The notes beneath the pieces were generated by a model. That model searched no databases and was not told the DNA's origin. It worked only from the letters and a program-made list of their open reading frames with translations. Below, one piece after another: positions 12,114 through 19,899 of a stretch of DNA of 22,334 bases. How positions within the stretch are numbered: the first letter of the stretch is position 1; each line of letters opens with the position of its first letter. Origin of the DNA: a virus; the IMG/VR virus record IMGVR_UViG_3300021963_000719, positions 1 through 22,334 of that record. One strand, given 5' to 3'. Both the position numbers and the translations under genes were made by a program.

Positions 12114-13253
12114 TTACCTAAGTGGCATTCTTGGTGGTTTTTCTGGAGGGAGATCTATAGAGATGTTATCTATAGCTTCGACATTAGATTCAAGTGCTAT
12201 ACGTTTTTCACGTTGACCAAACGTACCATATTCTTGAACTTCAGGAGTAGTTTCTGGAATAACTACATCTACTTCTTTATTCATTTCAGCCATTTGTTCT
12301 GGCTCTAATTCTTCAGGTTTCTTTTTACCAAAGAAATCCTCAATTATCTTCTTAGATTCCACTGGTAATGGACTCTTTTTGAAGAACATATCAGACCACT
12401 TAGGTTTATCAGGTTCTTCTAATTCATGATTATCTTTTAAGATAATGGATTCAATTTGTTGATTACCTTCAGAATCAGTCTTTATTACTACTGCTGGTTT
12501 TATCTCATCATCTTTTCTCATCTGCCAGTTAGCAGCGACAAGCATTAAAACTGCAAGTGGGTCAAATACTATAACAATCAGGATAATAACCCAACGGACT
12601 GCCTTCTCAAGCAAATCCGTTTCTGGATTATCACCGTAAAGTAATGCTGCTATGTATTTTATTGGACCGACTTCGGCTTCGACCTTCCTGACTTCGCTGG
12701 CGATTGGCGCACGCTCTTCGTTGAGTTTGGCGATCTTGGCTTGCGAGTTGCCGATTTCACTGAGGATTCTGGCTCTGTCTTTTTGTTGGTTTCTGCGGAT
12801 GTTAATGGCTCGCTCTGCCCCACTGGCTTCTGTGGTTCTTGCGATGGTTTGATCAACTTGAGAATCGAGTTGAGAAAGTTCTTTACGATTTGCATTTATG
12901 TTTTCCTTTTCTGTTTTAATTTTTTCATCTATTAGTGCAAGTTTTGCTTGCACGTCACCTGTGGGTATTGCTTGGTCCAAATGTGCTTTACTTAGATAAC
13001 CAAAAATTCCCATAGAAGTTAATAGCATCAATATTACTAAAGCAAATGTAAAGTAAGACTTCATCAACACTGGAATTTCTTTCCAAGTGCGATAGAGCCA
13101 TGATGCTACTACAAGTTTCGATGCTTCTAGCAACGAACCCATAATTAAAATAGGAATAACAGCTGCAGCGAAGATTGCTACTAACCCCATGATTGAGTAG
13201 TAGGCTGCGCATGCTGATAATGCTAATGCTGTTATGAATAATAGGTATTTCAT
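12114..13253 (-). CDS. Multi-pass membrane protein with long coiled coil
   Basis: 379 residues. Three N-terminal membrane helices (about 1-21, 23-48 and 66-88) are followed by a long charged coiled coil (~100-200, AKLALIDEKIKTEKENINAN to VRKVEAEVG). A fourth helix (~218-240, WVIILIVIVFDPLAVLMLVA) and a cytoplasmic-type acidic/Pro tail close it. This topology (helices, coiled coil, helix) resembles DUF4407-like membrane proteins and unnamed proteins of marine T4-like phages. The coiled coil probably lies outside the cytoplasm. Its ATG overlaps the GIY-YIG stop as ATGA. DNA for residues ~125-198 is far more GC-rich than the rest of the gene. Function unknown. Confidence 0.8.
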   Translation of the reverse strand: MKYLLFITALALSACAAYYSIMGLVAIFAAAVIPILIMGSLLEASKLVVASWLYRTWKEIPVLMKSYFTFALVILMLLTSMGIFGYLSKAHLDQAIPTGDVQAKLALIDEKIKTEKENINANRKELSQLDSQVDQTIARTTEASGAERAINIRRNQQKDRARILSEIGNSQAKIAKLNEERAPIASEVRKVEAEVGPIKYIAALLYGDNPETDLLEKAVRWVIILIVIVFDPLAVLMLVAANWQMRKDDEIKPAVVIKTDSEGNQQIESIILKDNHELEEPDKPKWSDMFFKKSPLPVESKKIIEDFFGKKKPEELEPEQMAEMNKEVDVVIPETTPEVQEYGTFGQREKRIALESNVEAIDNISIDLPPEKPPRMPLR

Positions 13254-13675
13254 AGTCTGTTAAGTATGTGTGATTTGTGGACTCTCACTGAGATTTGTCC
13301 GTTATAATAATCTTTTGTCTCCAAAACTTTTCTTGAAAACTGCTCCCTTGCTTCGATGTATGAACACTCTGCTTTCGATTTACAGAAATACAGAATTTCT
13401 CGTGTGAAGGACTCCTCGCCCAATCGCTCAACATCTTTATTTAATTCAATGCTAGAACCATAGTAGGTTAGCCAGTCAGATTCGATCTTTCCACGAATCT
13501 TCTTTTTCTTTTTCGTTCCATTTTTCAACTTAACTGTTTTGTAAGTTGTCTTTGCGAACTTGGCTAATTTTTTACCTATGTATTTTCTGTTGTCGGTTTT
13601 GTTCGTAATTAAATAAACAAATCCAACACAATCCTCAGGTAATGATTCTACTGTTTTGTTTTGATAATGCCACAT
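13250..13675 (-). CDS. SegE-like GIY-YIG endonuclease
   Basis: 141 residues. The GIY-YIG nuclease core is visible: the first strand Gly18-Phe-Val-Tyr21 (VGFVYLITN) and the second Lys31-Tyr-Ile-Gly34 (RKYIGKK) form the paired motif. Arg92 follows in FTREIL, and Glu108 in SYIEAREQF is the usual metal-binding Glu. A Lys-rich insertion (~44-62) lies between. It matches the SegE-type subfamily carried by T4-like phages, free-standing homing or DNA-cleaving enzymes. There is no added DNA-binding domain of the usual intron-homing type. It sits in an operon (TAATG and ATGA junctions), unlike a recent insertion. Confidence 0.88.
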   Translation of the reverse strand: MWHYQNKTVESLPEDCVGFVYLITNKTDNRKYIGKKLAKFAKTTYKTVKLKNGTKKKKKIRGKIESDWLTYYGSSIELNKDVERLGEESFTREILYFCKSKAECSYIEAREQFSRKVLETKDYYNGQISVRVHKSHILNRL

Positions 13676-13824
13676 TATTCTTCATCGTCTAGATCCTCTT
13701 CTTCGTAGATGTCAGCAGAACAAACTGGGCAATATACCACATCTTCTGTTGAATGGTCATCTCCTTTGAGGACGATCTTTCCTCGTGCTCCACATGATTC
13801 ACATTCAAAATATTTAGTCGACAT
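13675..13824 (-). CDS. Zinc-ribbon miniprotein
   Basis: 49 residues. Two Cys pairs, Cys8-Glu-Ser-Cys11 and Cys32-Pro-Val-Cys35, 20 residues apart, form a zinc ribbon; the end is strongly acidic (YEEEDLDDEE). Such tiny ribbons bind nucleic acid, RNA polymerase or another protein. The acidic tail argues against simple DNA binding. I recall the same SCGA.GKI.LKGDDH...VVYCPVC layout in cyanophages, unnamed. Its stop shares a base with the GIY-YIG start (TAATG) and its start overlaps the desaturase stop by 11 nt, so it is expressed with both. Confidence 0.85.
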   Translation of the reverse strand: MSTKYFECESCGARGKIVLKGDDHSTEDVVYCPVCSADIYEEEDLDDEE

Positions 13825-14524
13825 TTTTGACCCTTGCTAATCCTAATGTATTAAAAATTCTATACCACATCCAGCCAATATCAAATTCCAATGGTTTTCT
13901 GCTCAATTTGGGATTTGCTGGATCTCCATGATGATTATTATGCAGCTCTTCTCCACCGATTATAATTCCCCATGGAACTATATTGGTTGATTTATCCTTA
14001 CTATCATAGTTTCTATAACCATAATAGTGCCCCATACCATTTATAACACCTGCTGCCCAGAATGGAATCCATATCATTTGAACTCCCCAGACCCACAATC
14101 CCCACCAACCAAACAACAAGAAATCAATAATCAACAATATCGAAACACCAGCGTATGGGAACTTTGAGTAGATATTTTTCTCCACCCAATCATCTGGTGT
14201 ACCAACTCCATACTTCTGAACCATCTCTTTATCTTTTGATGATTCGATATAACAAACAACACCAGCAAACAAAACAAACCAAATACCGAATAAGTGTGGA
14301 GAATGTGGATCTCCTTCTTTATCAGAATTCTGATGATGTTTGCGATGTGTAGCTACCCATTCTTTTGTGACCATACCAGTCGTTAACCACAACCAGAATC
14401 TCATAAAATGAGATAGTCCTGAATTAAACTCAATACCTCTGTGAGTTTGTCCTCTATGTAAATATAAAGTCACGCACACAATTGTTATGTGTGTCATAAT
14501 CAACAGATATATTAGTTCAATCAT
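13814..14524 (-). CDS. Fatty-acid (acyl-CoA/ACP delta-9-type) desaturase
   Basis: 236 residues from the ATG at 14524; it overlaps the upstream gene by 8 nt. It introduces a double bond into an acyl chain in the membrane, using a di-iron centre, oxygen and reduced ferredoxin. All histidine boxes of the membrane desaturase family are present in order: His23-x4-His28 (HRGQTH), His60-x2-His63-His64 (HRKHH) and His195-x2-His198-His199 (HNNHH), plus His166 in NGMGHYYG. Hydrophobic helices (~1-20, ~35-52, ~77-92, ~124-160) fit the fold. It is shorter than most bacterial enzymes (~300) but complete in motifs. In a phage it would alter host membrane fluidity. It lies in the nucleotide operon. Confidence 0.92.
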   Translation of the reverse strand: MIELIYLLIMTHITIVCVTLYLHRGQTHRGIEFNSGLSHFMRFWLWLTTGMVTKEWVATHRKHHQNSDKEGDPHSPHLFGIWFVLFAGVVCYIESSKDKEMVQKYGVGTPDDWVEKNIYSKFPYAGVSILLIIDFLLFGWWGLWVWGVQMIWIPFWAAGVINGMGHYYGYRNYDSKDKSTNIVPWGIIIGGEELHNNHHGDPANPKLSRKPLEFDIGWMWYRIFNTLGLARVKNVD

Positions 14525-15155
14525 TTTTTCTTTCGTACATGACTGTATCAGTATCACCGAGCGACCATTTAGGATCTGTTTCAACAGACCATCGTTTGGT
14601 TGCTACCTTAAAGTCAGGTATCTTTAGTTGTTTTGGATTGCTGCTTGGTTCTAATATAATTAATCGATTATTTGGCTGAGCAGCAAACTGACCATTATCG
14701 CACATAATAAAATTGTAAGACTTATGGTCTTCGACATCTTCAGAAAAGCCAGTATCAAGAACATTAAAATCAGGATGGGCACTATCAATTGTGAAAAGAT
14801 ATACACCATACATCCAATCTCCATTTTTTAATTTAAACTTACAACGCATTGATTGTAGTTGTGCTTTCTTAATAACAGTAATGTCATATGAAAGACAATC
14901 CCATAATTGTAAATAATCTAATGGTAGTGGCTCACCTTCAATTGGTTTCCAACAAAATGCATGTAATGGCAACTTATCATACAAAGCACCATAATGATTT
15001 AGATATGCTTCAATTCTGAACGCTTGACCACGCAACGACTTAGCAGTTATCCACCAGCAAGGTTCTAGTTCACCATGACCTTTTTCAAAGTCATAAAGAA
15101 ACTCTCTACGAACATAACACTTTACTGGTGGTAAGTTCGCTACAATATGTGCCAT
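14517..15155 (-). CDS. Conserved unknown protein beside nrdB
   Basis: 212 residues, not assigned. The N-terminal half is rich in aromatic residues (CYVRREFLYDFEKGHGELEP, CWWITAKSLRGQAFRIEAYL), the middle has strands (CKFKLKNGDWMYGVYLFTID), and the end has LIILEP and a Trp/Asp-rich tail. No active-site motif or signal peptide. I recall relatives beside nrdAB in T4-like aquatic phages, which hints at a link with nucleotide metabolism or DNA replication but shows none. Its ATG shares a base with the nrdB stop and its end overlaps the desaturase start, so it is in the same operon. Confidence 0.75.
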   Translation of the reverse strand: MAHIVANLPPVKCYVRREFLYDFEKGHGELEPCWWITAKSLRGQAFRIEAYLNHYGALYDKLPLHAFCWKPIEGEPLPLDYLQLWDCLSYDITVIKKAQLQSMRCKFKLKNGDWMYGVYLFTIDSAHPDFNVLDTGFSEDVEDHKSYNFIMCDNGQFAAQPNNRLIILEPSSNPKQLKIPDFKVATKRWSVETDPKWSLGDTDTVMYERKND

Positions 15156-16147
15156 TACGCAGCTTTACCCCAAACATCATCCCAGCTACCAGACAAAGCA
15201 CCTTTAGCATAATCGGTAACACGATTCTCAAAGAAGTTACCATGCACTGGTGCATTAATCATTTCCTCAACCCATGGTAATGGATTCTTCTTAACTTTAA
15301 AGATACCTTTCATACCCAAGGAAATTAAACGACGATCCGCAATGTAGCGAATGTATTGTTTAACATCGTTTGAGTTGAGATCTCTCATGTCGCCATTCTG
15401 ATAGCATAGATCAATAAACTTATCTTCTAATGTAACCATCTTTTCAGCGATAGTATATATTTTAGATTTAAGTTCATCGTTCCAGATCTCTGGATTTTCT
15501 TTGATGAACTCTTTAAATAATTTAATCATATTCTCAGCATGCATTGTTTCGTCAACGATTGACCAAGTAACAATCTGCCCCATTCCTTTCATCATGCCGT
15601 GACGTGGAAAATTAAGAAGCATGATAAAAGAACTAAACAACTGCATGCCTTCAGTAAAGGCACTGAAAACAGCAATATGCTCAGCAGTACTAGCGATAGT
15701 ACCATTGCGACTAGAAATATCAAGTACATAGTCATGCTTGTCCCTCATCTCTTGATATTCGAGGAACTCATTGTATGTTGATTCTGGCATTCCAAGAGTT
15801 TCAATTAAATGTGAATATGCTGCAATGTGTAATGCCTCACGTGCAGCAAAACCAGAAAGCATCATGCGAATTTCTGGTTGTGGGAAATATGGGAGATAAT
15901 TCTTAACGTAACCACCAGCTACGTCAATGTCACCTTGTGTGAAGAAACGGAAAATATTAGTCAAGAATGTTTTTTCTTCTTGAGTCAAACTTTTCTTCCA
16001 TTGTTTAACATCTTCTGCCATTGGTACTTCAGTATGTAGCCAATGTGCTTGCTCGTGTTTTAGCCAAGCATCATATGCCCATGGATAATTGAACGGCTTA
16101 AAATAATTTCTTTCATCCGTCATTCTACTTGTTTTTGTTTTTACCAT
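15155..16147 (-). CDS. nrdB: Ribonucleotide reductase small subunit
   Basis: Class I R2 subunit, 330 residues, cytoplasmic; holds the metal cofactor and radical used by NrdA. Di-metal ligands are readable: Asp73 (QGDIDV), Glu104 and His107 (REALHIAA), Glu166 (FTEGMQLF), Glu200 and His203 (DETMH). A tyrosine at 111, four residues after His107, sits where E. coli Tyr122 is, so a tyrosyl radical is expected. The C-terminal part (HGNFFENRVTDYAKGA...) ends SGSWDDVWGKAA, the tail that docks with NrdA. An alternative start is Met9. It is separated from nrdA by the 64-aa gene. Confidence 0.95.
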   Translation of the reverse strand: MVKTKTSRMTDERNYFKPFNYPWAYDAWLKHEQAHWLHTEVPMAEDVKQWKKSLTQEEKTFLTNIFRFFTQGDIDVAGGYVKNYLPYFPQPEIRMMLSGFAAREALHIAAYSHLIETLGMPESTYNEFLEYQEMRDKHDYVLDISSRNGTIASTAEHIAVFSAFTEGMQLFSSFIMLLNFPRHGMMKGMGQIVTWSIVDETMHAENMIKLFKEFIKENPEIWNDELKSKIYTIAEKMVTLEDKFIDLCYQNGDMRDLNSNDVKQYIRYIADRRLISLGMKGIFKVKKNPLPWVEEMINAPVHGNFFENRVTDYAKGALSGSWDDVWGKAA

Positions 16148-16343: not shown

Positions 16344-18167
16344 TTATCCCTCGCAGGCTAAGCAAGCACCATCGTCAGCTGATGCCAGTGCTGTTAAATC
16401 AATTTCCTTAATAACTTCTCGCTCGATACGCTTAGCAACTTTATCTGCTTTAGCAATCTTATCTGAACGACAATAATACATTGTCTTCAATCCTTGTTTC
16501 CATGCTTGGAAGTGAACTGCATGAATATATTTGATATGACTATCTGGACGGAAGAATACGTTTAGTGATTGGGCTTGGTCAATATATTCTTGACGATCTG
16601 CTGCATGTTGCACAACCCAACGCTGGTCAATCTCCATAGAAGTTTTGAACACATCTTTAGTCCAATCATCCATCCAATCAAGGTGCTGAACACTACCATC
16701 ATTAGCAATAATACTACGCCAAATATCTTGGTATTCATCTTCACCCTTTGGTGTCAATGGAGCACCATTTGGTGAAAGGTGTTTCATTATCACCTTATCA
16801 AGATAACGATTTTTATTTAGGTGAGAACCCGATAGAGTATCTTGGCGATAAGCATTGGCACGATAAGGTTCAATGCTAGGACTAGTATTGCCCATAAGAA
16901 TGGAAGAAGAAGCATTGGGAGCAATAGCCATAAGATGACTAAAGCGATTACCAGTGCCCACTGCATCAGGAGCTTCACCACGCTCCAATCCAAGTTTCTT
17001 ATTCGCTTCATCTAACTTCTCTCTGATATGTTTGAATATCTTTTTGTTTCGACCAACTGCCATTGGGTTTTCCCATGGTAGGTTATTTCTTTGCAGGAAG
17101 GCATGCCAACCCAACGCACCAATGCCGATGCTTCTCTCTCGCATGGCGGAATATTTCGCTCGTTTGATTGCGGAAGGTGCATGATCAATAAAATACTGAA
17201 GAACATTGTCAAGCATTTCTGCAATATCAGCAAGGAAAAGAGGATCGTCTTTCCACTCATCATAGTACTCCAAATTTAATGAAGAAAGACAGCACACTGC
17301 AGTTCTCTTCTCGTTAGTTGGTAGAATAATTTCTGAACACAGATTAGATTGATTAACCTTTAGTCCTTTATCCTTTAACCACTGAGGTAGTTTGCGATTT
17401 GATTCGTCAATAAAATGTAAATATGGCTCACCAGTAGTCATACGTAACTCTAGGATTTTCTGCCATAGTTCTTTAGCTGATACAGTTTCACGAACTTCAT
17501 TGGAAGCTGGATCTACTAATTGCCACGAATCATCAAAGTTTGGATCGAGCATTGATTGCTCGATAATATGCATAAACGCATCAGGAATGTTTACACCATG
17601 ATGCATGTTTAGGGTTCTCAGATTCTGATCCCCTGTTGGTTTACGCATCTCTAAAAATGGGATAATGTCTGGATGATCAATAGACAAGTAAGCAGCATAA
17701 CTCCCCCTGCGAGTACGACCCTGCCTGTATGCCAGAGAACTGGAGTCATAGATCTTGAGGTGAGGCATGACACCAGTAGACTTATCGTCTGCTGAACGAA
17801 TACCAAAGCCAATACCAACACCACCCCCGAGCATAGAAAGCCAATTAGTTTCTGATAGGTTATCAACTAGTCCCTCCGCTGTATCTTCAATATAGTTAAG
17901 AAAACATGATATAGGCAAGCCACGCTTACTGCGACCAAAAGATAAAATGGGAGTAGAATAAGACAACCAATGCTTACTGCTGTACTCGTATAACCTCTGC
18001 GCATGTTCTTCATTAGAGCCGAATTGTTTTGATACATAAGCGAACCTTTCTTGTGGAGATTGTTCATCATCTTTCATGTAGGATTCTTTTAACCTCATCA
18101 ATCCTAGCGCATCAAATAAATTATCTCGGCTGTAGTCAACCGCAATGCCATGCACGACACTTTCCAT
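16344..18167 (-). CDS. nrdA: Ribonucleotide reductase large subunit, no ATP-cone
   Basis: Catalytic subunit of class I reductase, 607 residues, shorter than E. coli NrdA (761) because the N-terminal ATP-cone is absent. Radical and redox residues are present: Cys88 (ISCFLN), Asn275-Cys277-Glu279 (QSNLCSEI), Cys292 (AVCCLSSLNL) and the C-terminal Cys602/Cys605 pair (CLACEG) that shuttles electrons. With no cone, overall dATP inhibition is not expected in the usual way. The ATG at 18167 has GGAG 7 nt upstream. It follows thyX by 20 nt and is followed by the 64-aa gene and nrdB in one operon. Confidence 0.95.
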   Translation of the reverse strand: MESVVHGIAVDYSRDNLFDALGLMRLKESYMKDDEQSPQERFAYVSKQFGSNEEHAQRLYEYSSKHWLSYSTPILSFGRSKRGLPISCFLNYIEDTAEGLVDNLSETNWLSMLGGGVGIGFGIRSADDKSTGVMPHLKIYDSSSLAYRQGRTRRGSYAAYLSIDHPDIIPFLEMRKPTGDQNLRTLNMHHGVNIPDAFMHIIEQSMLDPNFDDSWQLVDPASNEVRETVSAKELWQKILELRMTTGEPYLHFIDESNRKLPQWLKDKGLKVNQSNLCSEIILPTNEKRTAVCCLSSLNLEYYDEWKDDPLFLADIAEMLDNVLQYFIDHAPSAIKRAKYSAMRERSIGIGALGWHAFLQRNNLPWENPMAVGRNKKIFKHIREKLDEANKKLGLERGEAPDAVGTGNRFSHLMAIAPNASSSILMGNTSPSIEPYRANAYRQDTLSGSHLNKNRYLDKVIMKHLSPNGAPLTPKGEDEYQDIWRSIIANDGSVQHLDWMDDWTKDVFKTSMEIDQRWVVQHAADRQEYIDQAQSLNVFFRPDSHIKYIHAVHFQAWKQGLKTMYYCRSDKIAKADKVAKRIEREVIKEIDLTALASADDGACLACEG

Positions 18168-18187: not shown

Positions 18188-18883
18188 TTATACGTTTACG
18201 AATTCTTCCACCATTGGGAAGATACTTGCTATTACTTTCGCACATTCACGTGCAACTAACATGTGTTCTTTCTGTGTGCCGTTTGCACTGCGGAGTTCAA
18301 TAAAATGAACCCAACTACGCAAAGTACCATTCATATACAATCTAGAAACAGTTAACCCTTCTGGTAAAACTGCTCTGGCTTGTTCTTTGGCGATACCATT
18401 TTTAATCGCCCAGTCATATGCGTGCTCAGCAGCTTGTATAACTTCTTTCTGCTTCCACTTCCACTGCTCCATTAAATTTTGTTCAGTGAGTGTGAGACCG
18501 CTAAGTTCTATAGAATTTTGTCTGTTCTTCTGGTCCTGTAATCTTGCTTCTCTAAAAACAAAATCAAGTTCTTTTGTGGGGTCAGCATATCGTTGACTAA
18601 ACTCCTGGAAGGAAAAAGAGCGATGACGTAAAATTTGTCTTGCGATATCTCGTGTGGTTTCAATTTCTAAACAAGCACTTACCATCTCTAGTGGTGACCA
18701 ATGTTTGTTTTTAATAAGATATCGAATCAACTTTTCTGCTGTATCTGTGTTGTATTGATTACTGGGATTTGAAACTCTTGCGCAGTAAGCAATTAAATCT
18801 TGAACATTATTTAGACCATCTTCAATAACTTCAGGTGTTCCCTGCGAATAATTTATTAATTTAACTTTCAAATCTTTCTCCAT
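18188..18883 (-). CDS. thyX: Flavin-dependent thymidylate synthase
   Basis: Makes dTMP from dUMP with methylene-tetrahydrofolate, FAD and NADPH. 231 residues, usual ThyX length. The signature RHRxxSxxxxSxR is complete: Arg86-His-Arg88, Ser96 and Arg98 (RHRSFSFQEFSQR), with the dUMP-binding part near residues 190-210 (TLRSWVHFIELR). The ATG at 18883 lies inside the gp61 end (16-nt overlap) without a strong ribosome site, so coupling with gp61 is likely. It replaces the T4 ThyA (td) in this phage, as in many aquatic phages, and works with the dCMP deaminase. Confidence 0.95.
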   Translation of the reverse strand: MEKDLKVKLINYSQGTPEVIEDGLNNVQDLIAYCARVSNPSNQYNTDTAEKLIRYLIKNKHWSPLEMVSACLEIETTRDIARQILRHRSFSFQEFSQRYADPTKELDFVFREARLQDQKNRQNSIELSGLTLTEQNLMEQWKWKQKEVIQAAEHAYDWAIKNGIAKEQARAVLPEGLTVSRLYMNGTLRSWVHFIELRSANGTQKEHMLVARECAKVIASIFPMVEEFVNV

Positions 18884-19899
18884 GTACTAAATTTTAATTT
18901 TGCTTCAACACCTGAAAAGGTATTCGTATTTATCAATTCAACAATTTCGTCAGTGGTCATTTTACCATCTAAAATCATTTCATTGATATCTTTTTGCATT
19001 ACGGTGTCGGGGAACATACAAACATTATAGCCCAAACTAATATATTTGTCAAGTTGTTTTACTATATCTTTATTACGTGGTTCATTATCCATTACTATCG
19101 TTGCATTAGTAAGTAGCTGACGAATAGTGGGGGTATCAAAACTTGCTCCTGACACAGCAATTGCATTTGGTAAGAATAGCGAATCAATTGGTCCTTCAAC
19201 AACGTATATACGTTTGCTATAATCCAAGCGATCGAGTCCATATATTTTCTCCTGCGTTTCATCTACTTTAATTGTATAATACTTGGGTTCTTCTTTACCG
19301 AATGCTCTAGCCTGATATGCGAAACATTTACCAGCAGCAGTGAAGTAAGGAATGATAAGTCTTGGATGTTCATCTACTATTGGCTCTTGAAACTTTGGTG
19401 TAACTGTATTGGTATATGCTTTAAACTTTGGAGCGAAGTAGAGTAACTTCCATTTATCCTCTGGTATCTGTCGGTTCTTTATATATTGAAGTACTGGATG
19501 AGTATCTGGTAATTTATCGATACGTGTAAGATCCTCGAGAATATCATCCTCAAGTAATTCTTCTTCTGGAGTTTCTAAGACGACACTGGTATCAGCAATG
19601 TCTTTGTGGTCATTGTATCTTGTTGCGCCAGATTTATAACGCTCCAAGACATACTCATCATAAAGTTTTGTATCGACATACTTGATTAAGTTGCCGAGAT
19701 TAGTTCCATGTCCGCAGTTGTGACATTTACAAAACAAATCTGACTTTGCTCGATAAATGTATCCACGTGCTTTAAGTTTGTTAGTGGTGCTGTCACCACA
19801 GACTGGGCAGGAATAATTCCAAAGGTAATCTTTTTTCTGTTTGAAATTTCTTAGACGTGATCCAAGAATACTTGCAAACTTAACATCAATGTATAACAT
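18868..19899 (-). CDS. 61: DNA primase (gp61-like)
   Basis: Synthesises RNA primers at the fork with the helicase. 343 residues, nearly the length of T4 gp61 (342). The N-terminal zinc ribbon has Cys31-Pro-Val-Cys34-Gly and Cys59-His-Asn-Cys62 (plus Cys57). The TOPRIM metal site has Glu235 in IYVVEGPIDS and Asp271 in ATIVMDNEP, with KDINEM later. The C-terminal part (ELINTNTFSGVEAKLKFS) resembles T4 gp61. GGAG precedes the ATG at 19899, directly behind the hairpin at 19909-19933. It overlaps thyX by 16 nt. Confidence 0.95.
   Translation of the reverse strand: MLYIDVKFASILGSRLRNFKQKKDYLWNYSCPVCGDSTTNKLKARGYIYRAKSDLFCKCHNCGHGTNLGNLIKYVDTKLYDEYVLERYKSGATRYNDHKDIADTSVVLETPEEELLEDDILEDLTRIDKLPDTHPVLQYIKNRQIPEDKWKLLYFAPKFKAYTNTVTPKFQEPIVDEHPRLIIPYFTAAGKCFAYQARAFGKEEPKYYTIKVDETQEKIYGLDRLDYSKRIYVVEGPIDSLFLPNAIAVSGASFDTPTIRQLLTNATIVMDNEPRNKDIVKQLDKYISLGYNVCMFPDTVMQKDINEMILDGKMTTDEIVELINTNTFSGVEAKLKFSTWRKI

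Follow-up and report, generated by a model that had tools for sequence, protein, structure and literature searches.

A putative phage fatty acid desaturase of the DesA type without the C-terminal domain of the bacterial forms examined

The desaturase locus and its relatives

The window, by which we mean the whole stretch of DNA analysed, is an entire virus record of 22,334 bases, in which no tRNA gene was found. Its minus strand carries, from 14524 to 13814, a frame encoding a 236-aa protein, P0001 (Table 1), while the plus strand over the same positions contains many stops. The initial annotation had read this gene as a fatty acid desaturase with three histidine boxes, linked by overlaps to a gene beside nrdB and to a zinc-ribbon gene. 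Its coordinates and boxes were confirmed, with the gene on the minus strand, and so were both junctions: the ATG of the desaturase overlaps the TGA of the 212-aa upstream gene (14517-14524), and its stop region overlaps the ATG of the 49-aa zinc-ribbon gene. Since a protein identical to P0001 is encoded on three further IMG/VR contigs (L002-L004), the gene is not an assembly artefact.

Table 1. Coordinates of the desaturase gene, its metal-site motifs and neighbouring genes in the window
Feature	Position	Strand	Basis or remark
Secreted-looking protein, 720 aa	9387..11549	-	about ten tandem Cys-bearing repeats, type LYSTTCPGYAxAYxxQQC; no match in Pfam or PHROG
Membrane protein, 379 aa	12114..13253	-	tetraspanin and DUF4407 matches below threshold
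SegE-like GIY-YIG protein	13250..13675	-	PF19835, 4.2e-32
Zinc-ribbon-like protein, 49 aa	13675..13824	-	every Pfam match under cut-off
Core-only DesA-type fatty acid desaturase (putative), 236 aa (P0001)	13814..14524	-	Pfam, NCBIfam, model fold
Histidine box 3, HNNHH, residues 195-199	13928..13942	-	154/155 rows; the other row ends at 104 aa
Additional metal-site motif NGMGH (N162, H166)	14027..14041	-	sequence; alignment with SCD1
Histidine box 2, HRKHH, residues 60-64	14333..14347	-	H60, H63, H64 in 155/155 rows
Histidine box 1, HRGQTH, residues 23-28	14441..14458	-	H23, H28 in 155/155 rows
Neighbour, 212 aa, phrog_3704	14517..15155	-	PHROG match; directly after nrdB
nrdB, ribonucleotide reductase small subunit	15155..16147	-	PF00268, 8.2e-77
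nrdA, ribonucleotide reductase large subunit	16344..18167	-	PF02867, 2.8e-103
thyX	18188..18883	-	PF02511, 1.4e-43
DNA primase	18868..19899	-	phrog_47, 4.2e-87

Upstream of the desaturase, and in the same direction, lie nrdB, a 64-aa frame, nrdA, thyX and the primase gene. Homologues of the 212-aa neighbour are labelled PurM, ferredoxin or hypothetical in phage records; a ferredoxin was considered for this protein and set aside, as it has scattered cysteines, no CxxC pair and no Pfam match, so that the name appears to be a mistaken annotation. The name "NAD synthetase" that PHROGs gives to the SegE-like protein (phrog_447) is probably a label error too.

At least 590 related stretches occur in IMG/VR. 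The 154 viral loci compared here comprise the best 80 of a first scan and 74 more from a second scan with a full-length bacterial query; they include nine repeat contigs (leaving 145 contigs) and, together with the window, encode 114 distinct proteins. A homologue of the window's nrdB is found nearby in 63 of the 154 loci, the zinc ribbon in 54, the SegE-like gene in 70 and the 379-aa membrane protein in 51, and flank length varies among loci. Elsewhere the desaturase stands beside a primase or helicase, a Gp23 capsid gene, an epimerase, an aldolase or a nuclease. The nucleotide operon proposed in the initial annotation is supported in the window, where the gene overlaps its neighbours and is co-directional with the nrd/thyX/primase block, but it is one of several contexts in relatives; a proposed tie to lysis or to an envelope block is unsupported. 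Further matches occur in two relatives: a 356-kb virus record encodes, besides its DesA-type enzyme, a distant one with 33% identity in a 258-aa open frame (L063:1048-1758, minus strand), and virus record G013 has a second match as well.

No redox partner was recognised among the window's own neighbours or among 20 neighbour proteins from relatives (20 of 174 listed were scanned). A gene of about 340 aa that recurs downstream in relatives was considered as an oxidoreductase and rejected: among three copies scanned, the one in L162 resembles a Toprim primase, and Pfam gave no match for the other two. Among 24 related virus records, five carry a T4-type Gp23, two a ketoacyl-synthase and four an AdoMet decarboxylase, the latter two genes occurring together in G013. 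The capsid protein of one relative (G006) is nearest to that of Methylophilales phage Melnitz-3 at 66.8%, with cyanophages next at 66%. Methanol dehydrogenase was found in none of the 24 records, and no host was assigned to the window.

Family, fold and metal site

P0001 passes the gathering cut-off of Pfam FA_desaturase (PF00487; 50.5 bits against 29.7, E 3.2e-13) and matches NCBIfam DesA_fam_desat (NF049918) at E 1e-118 over profile positions 11-242 of 385, which places its membership of the desaturases far beyond chance. Judged from sequence, the named family nearest to it is that of DesA, a delta-9 desaturase of proteobacterial phospholipids, and not the desaturases in general. DesA is the sole NCBIfam model that P0001 matches at E 0.01, and its 396.9 bits fall 3.1 short of the equivalog cut-off of 400; six of ten related virus records pass that cut-off, some with scores that include read-through past the stop. 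With this family, named after P. aeruginosa DesA and compared here as a profile, P0001 shares the core.

An AlphaFold model of P0001 built on a 54-row alignment (pLDDT 85.2, pTM 0.83) superposes on SCD1 (4ymk_D) with Z 18.2 and rmsd 3.0 over 224 aligned residues, and Foldseek with the same model returned SCD1 (6wf2) at E 3.7e-07. SCD1 structures clearly top both structure searches, and a sequence search of the PDB also finds SCD1, at 1.5e-07. The fold and metal-site pattern of SCD1 (PDB 4ymk, 4zyo, 6wf2) are shared by P0001 at about 20% identity, in an alignment that begins at SCD1 residue 94; the part before that residue, unmatched in P0001, presumably includes SCD1's first membrane helix. 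Loss of this helix in phages was considered and dismissed, since bacterial DesA likewise begins just before box 1 (alignment A3).

Residues H23, H28, H60, H63, H64, N162, H166, H195, H198 and H199 are what we take to be the ten positions of an SCD-type di-iron site. They align with SCD1, are invariant in alignment A2, and are retained in 154 of 155 viral rows (window included), the exception being a frame cut at 104 aa. The histidine boxes and the additional Asn and His are shared with bacterial DesA at 53-61% identity (25 bacterial rows of A2). Loss of a required histidine had been named in the initial annotation as a point to check; every histidine ligand is present in P0001, the metal site is intact, and the assignment to the desaturase family was right in kind.

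The fold superfamily also includes hydroxylases and alkane monooxygenase (8f6t, Z 7.6 to the P0001 model), and sequence does not reveal the substrate, so a desaturase-fold enzyme with another reaction, be it a hydroxylase, a ketolase or a desaturase of another lipid or position, has to be weighed. We regard it as unlikely in view of the single NCBIfam model matched, the clear lead of SCD1 in the structure searches, and the 55-63% core identity to bacterial DesA. The reading of P0001 as a DesA-type desaturase is therefore preferred.

The C-terminal domain and the viral clade

The initial annotation ascribed the small size of the protein to streamlining. The size is real, since the viral clade measures 231-241 aa with two exceptions among 154 loci, but one whole C-terminal domain is absent in comparison with bacterial DesA. 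In the first viral scan all 80 best loci are 231-238 aa long and end in a stop; among the 74 further loci, 72 are of 233-241 aa, one is of 257 aa and one is broken at 104 aa. Of the best 80 bacterial loci from a scan of 84,980 species, in contrast, 78 encode complete proteins of 374-398 aa and the other two are cut by the contig end. The approximately 140 extra residues beyond the bacterial core are homologous to part of ISL3 transposases: DDE_Tnp_ISL3 lies above the Pfam cut-off after the core in all four bacterial proteins scanned at full length (1.6e-07 to 4.8e-12). Bacterial DesA proteins with such C-terminal parts include L133, L151, L082 and L108; in L092:5956-7101 (plus strand), a DesA from a bacterial MAG, this domain has diverged to an unusual degree, and the protein sits on a long branch.

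An HMM of the C-terminal domain recognises 80 of the 80 best bacterial loci and none of 156 viral sources (the 154 loci and two copies of the window), in agreement with the profile match of P0001, which ends at 242, the ISL3-like part (about 243-385) being absent. The same HMM found nothing downstream of the viral stops (best E 0.63). Nine viral matches past the core were examined as possible relics of the domain and rejected, since their alignments cross stop codons and have a random appearance. When IMG/VR was scanned with one C-terminal domain, no relative turned up, at a reach that for a single-protein query extends to close relatives only.

A sample of 398 Pseudomonadota genomes yielded 61 places in 58 genomes over the DesA cut-off. 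All are full length, with matches that begin at profile position 4 at the latest and reach at least position 383; these genomes yielded no short DesA, and the next score falls to 110.6 bits. Phyla beyond Pseudomonadota were covered by the 84,980-species scan only. The Pseudomonadota list also contains repeated C-terminal-only matches (positions about 231-384, in places with several identical copies in one genome). These look like ISL3 transposases and hence agree with the relationship of the DesA tail seen in Pfam. Foldseek of a bacterial DesA model returned no PDB match for the tail, which leaves room for one, and a literature search found no paper linking DDE_Tnp_ISL3 with a desaturase.

The absent domain is what might speak for a protein that is made but is no catalyst by itself, for example a dominant-negative partner or decoy of host DesA, given that all examined bacterial DesA loci possess it. 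A pure decoy would need no metal ligands, however, and the conservation of all ten in 154 of 155 rows makes this reading improbable. We infer that the C-terminal domain is dispensable for catalysis, and its absence may free the viral enzyme from a host control.

Purifying selection on the viral core-only clade is evident from dN/dS values of 0.032-0.203 in 16 of 17 pairs of viral desaturases, one pair being saturated. A passenger gene without function, picked up from a host, might be suspected on account of the metagenomic origin of the record and of the one broken frame among the 154 loci (L183, 104 aa); set against these values, the diversity of the separate viral clade and the abundance of related stretches in IMG/VR, we give it hardly any credence.

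In a tree of core columns, 61 viral and 46 bacterial rows are split at one branch with an SH-aLRT of 99; this 116-row tree was built after removal of near-duplicates (at 80% for viral and 78% for bacterial rows), with L183 and L095, which is short by contig end, excluded. A more careful 76-row tree, with every second viral representative, no outgroup, and L183 and L116 excluded, supports the viral/bacterial branch at 100/95, in a bootstrap that had not fully settled. The diversity within the viral clade speaks against its having been acquired recently from any host sampled. The outgroup is very distant (inner branch 6.5, one row 7.6), which makes the root unsafe, so that the viral form may have arisen from a fused ancestor by truncation or may continue an ancestral state without the fusion. 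Phylogeny had been expected to name the donor host; the viral forms all fall on one side of the branch, apart from all sampled bacterial forms, and P0001 has 55-63% core identity to its best bacterial matches, so that with an unsafe root no donor was named.

Proposed role in infection

Taken together, P0001 is probably an auxiliary enzyme that works for the phage, an acyl-lipid desaturase of the DesA type with the core only, as argued by its sequence and model; the ketoacyl-synthase encoded in two of the 24 related virus records also speaks for this reading. It would be made alongside the nucleotide-synthesis genes during infection, insert into the host inner membrane and bind two irons through nine histidines and one asparagine, the latter through water. 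Oxygen and electrons from a host redox carrier would then drive the formation of a cis double bond, most likely at delta-9, in acyl chains that membrane phospholipids already carry as esters; a donor from the host is assumed because no redox partner was recognised beside the desaturase. One study describes P. aeruginosa DesA as introducing a delta-9 double bond into 16:0 at sn-2 of existing phospholipids, and DesB as requiring the oxidoreductase DesC, and there the electron donor of DesA appears to be unsettled (PMC10634369). The delta-9 position, the phospholipid substrate and the activity of the phage enzyme we infer by analogy with this named family, and since P0001 scores just under the family cut-off and is without a domain common to all bacterial members examined, activity cannot simply be transferred. 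Acting on finished lipid, which needs no new fatty acid synthesis, would suit a phage. The phage might benefit from a membrane whose fluidity is maintained in cold water or once the host no longer makes lipid or, plausibly, from a membrane altered for virion production.

Phage desaturases are known as a class. Cyanophage lipid desaturases were reportedly described by Roitman et al. in ISME J in 2018, and they, too, are phage-borne membrane lipid desaturases regarded as auxiliary metabolic genes. A tblastn search with P0001 at E 1e-3 gave no match in 50,697 phage records, so that any cyanophage desaturases among those records are not close relatives. In BFVD, one phage match lay under E 0.001; A0A6J5LCH2 of that database, an OLE1 fatty-acid desaturase of 233 aa from an uncultured Caudovirales phage, reaches TM 0.83 to the P0001 model at only 36% identity. 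Viral fatty acid desaturases (FADs) are reported from Arctic brines, where their authors read them as aiding fluidity in the cold or as altering the membrane for virion production (PMC7300359). Freshwater SAR11 myophages are reported to carry fabF, speH and a "stearoyl-CoA desaturase" (PMC7029224); the ketoacyl-synthase and AdoMet decarboxylase of G013 are comparable to their fabF and speH. Both sets are likened to P0001 by description, and the accessible text mentions no missing DesA domain. In the phage desaturase literature, with subscription papers thinly represented, no description of a core-only DesA clade was found, and what this analysis adds is a core-only DesA architecture seen in phages only.

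It is tempting, though we hold the idea only tentatively and below even odds, that phages keep their own stand-alone lineage of phospholipid desaturase without the transposase-related tail, with the tail either cut away or an unfused ancestor preserved. In the former case, phages would have removed a regulatory or donor-docking domain, leaving the enzyme unchecked during infection; in the latter, they would preserve an ancestral enzyme that predates capture of the ISL3 domain.

Outside cyanophages, how phages remodel membranes is poorly understood. That purifying selection acts on a large viral clade suggests that phages gain from retaining lipid desaturation during infection. Its consistent lack of the domain offers a natural experiment on the function of the ISL3-like tail in bacterial DesA, for which there is as yet no explanation, and the phage core represents the smallest part that the electron donor of DesA should recognise.
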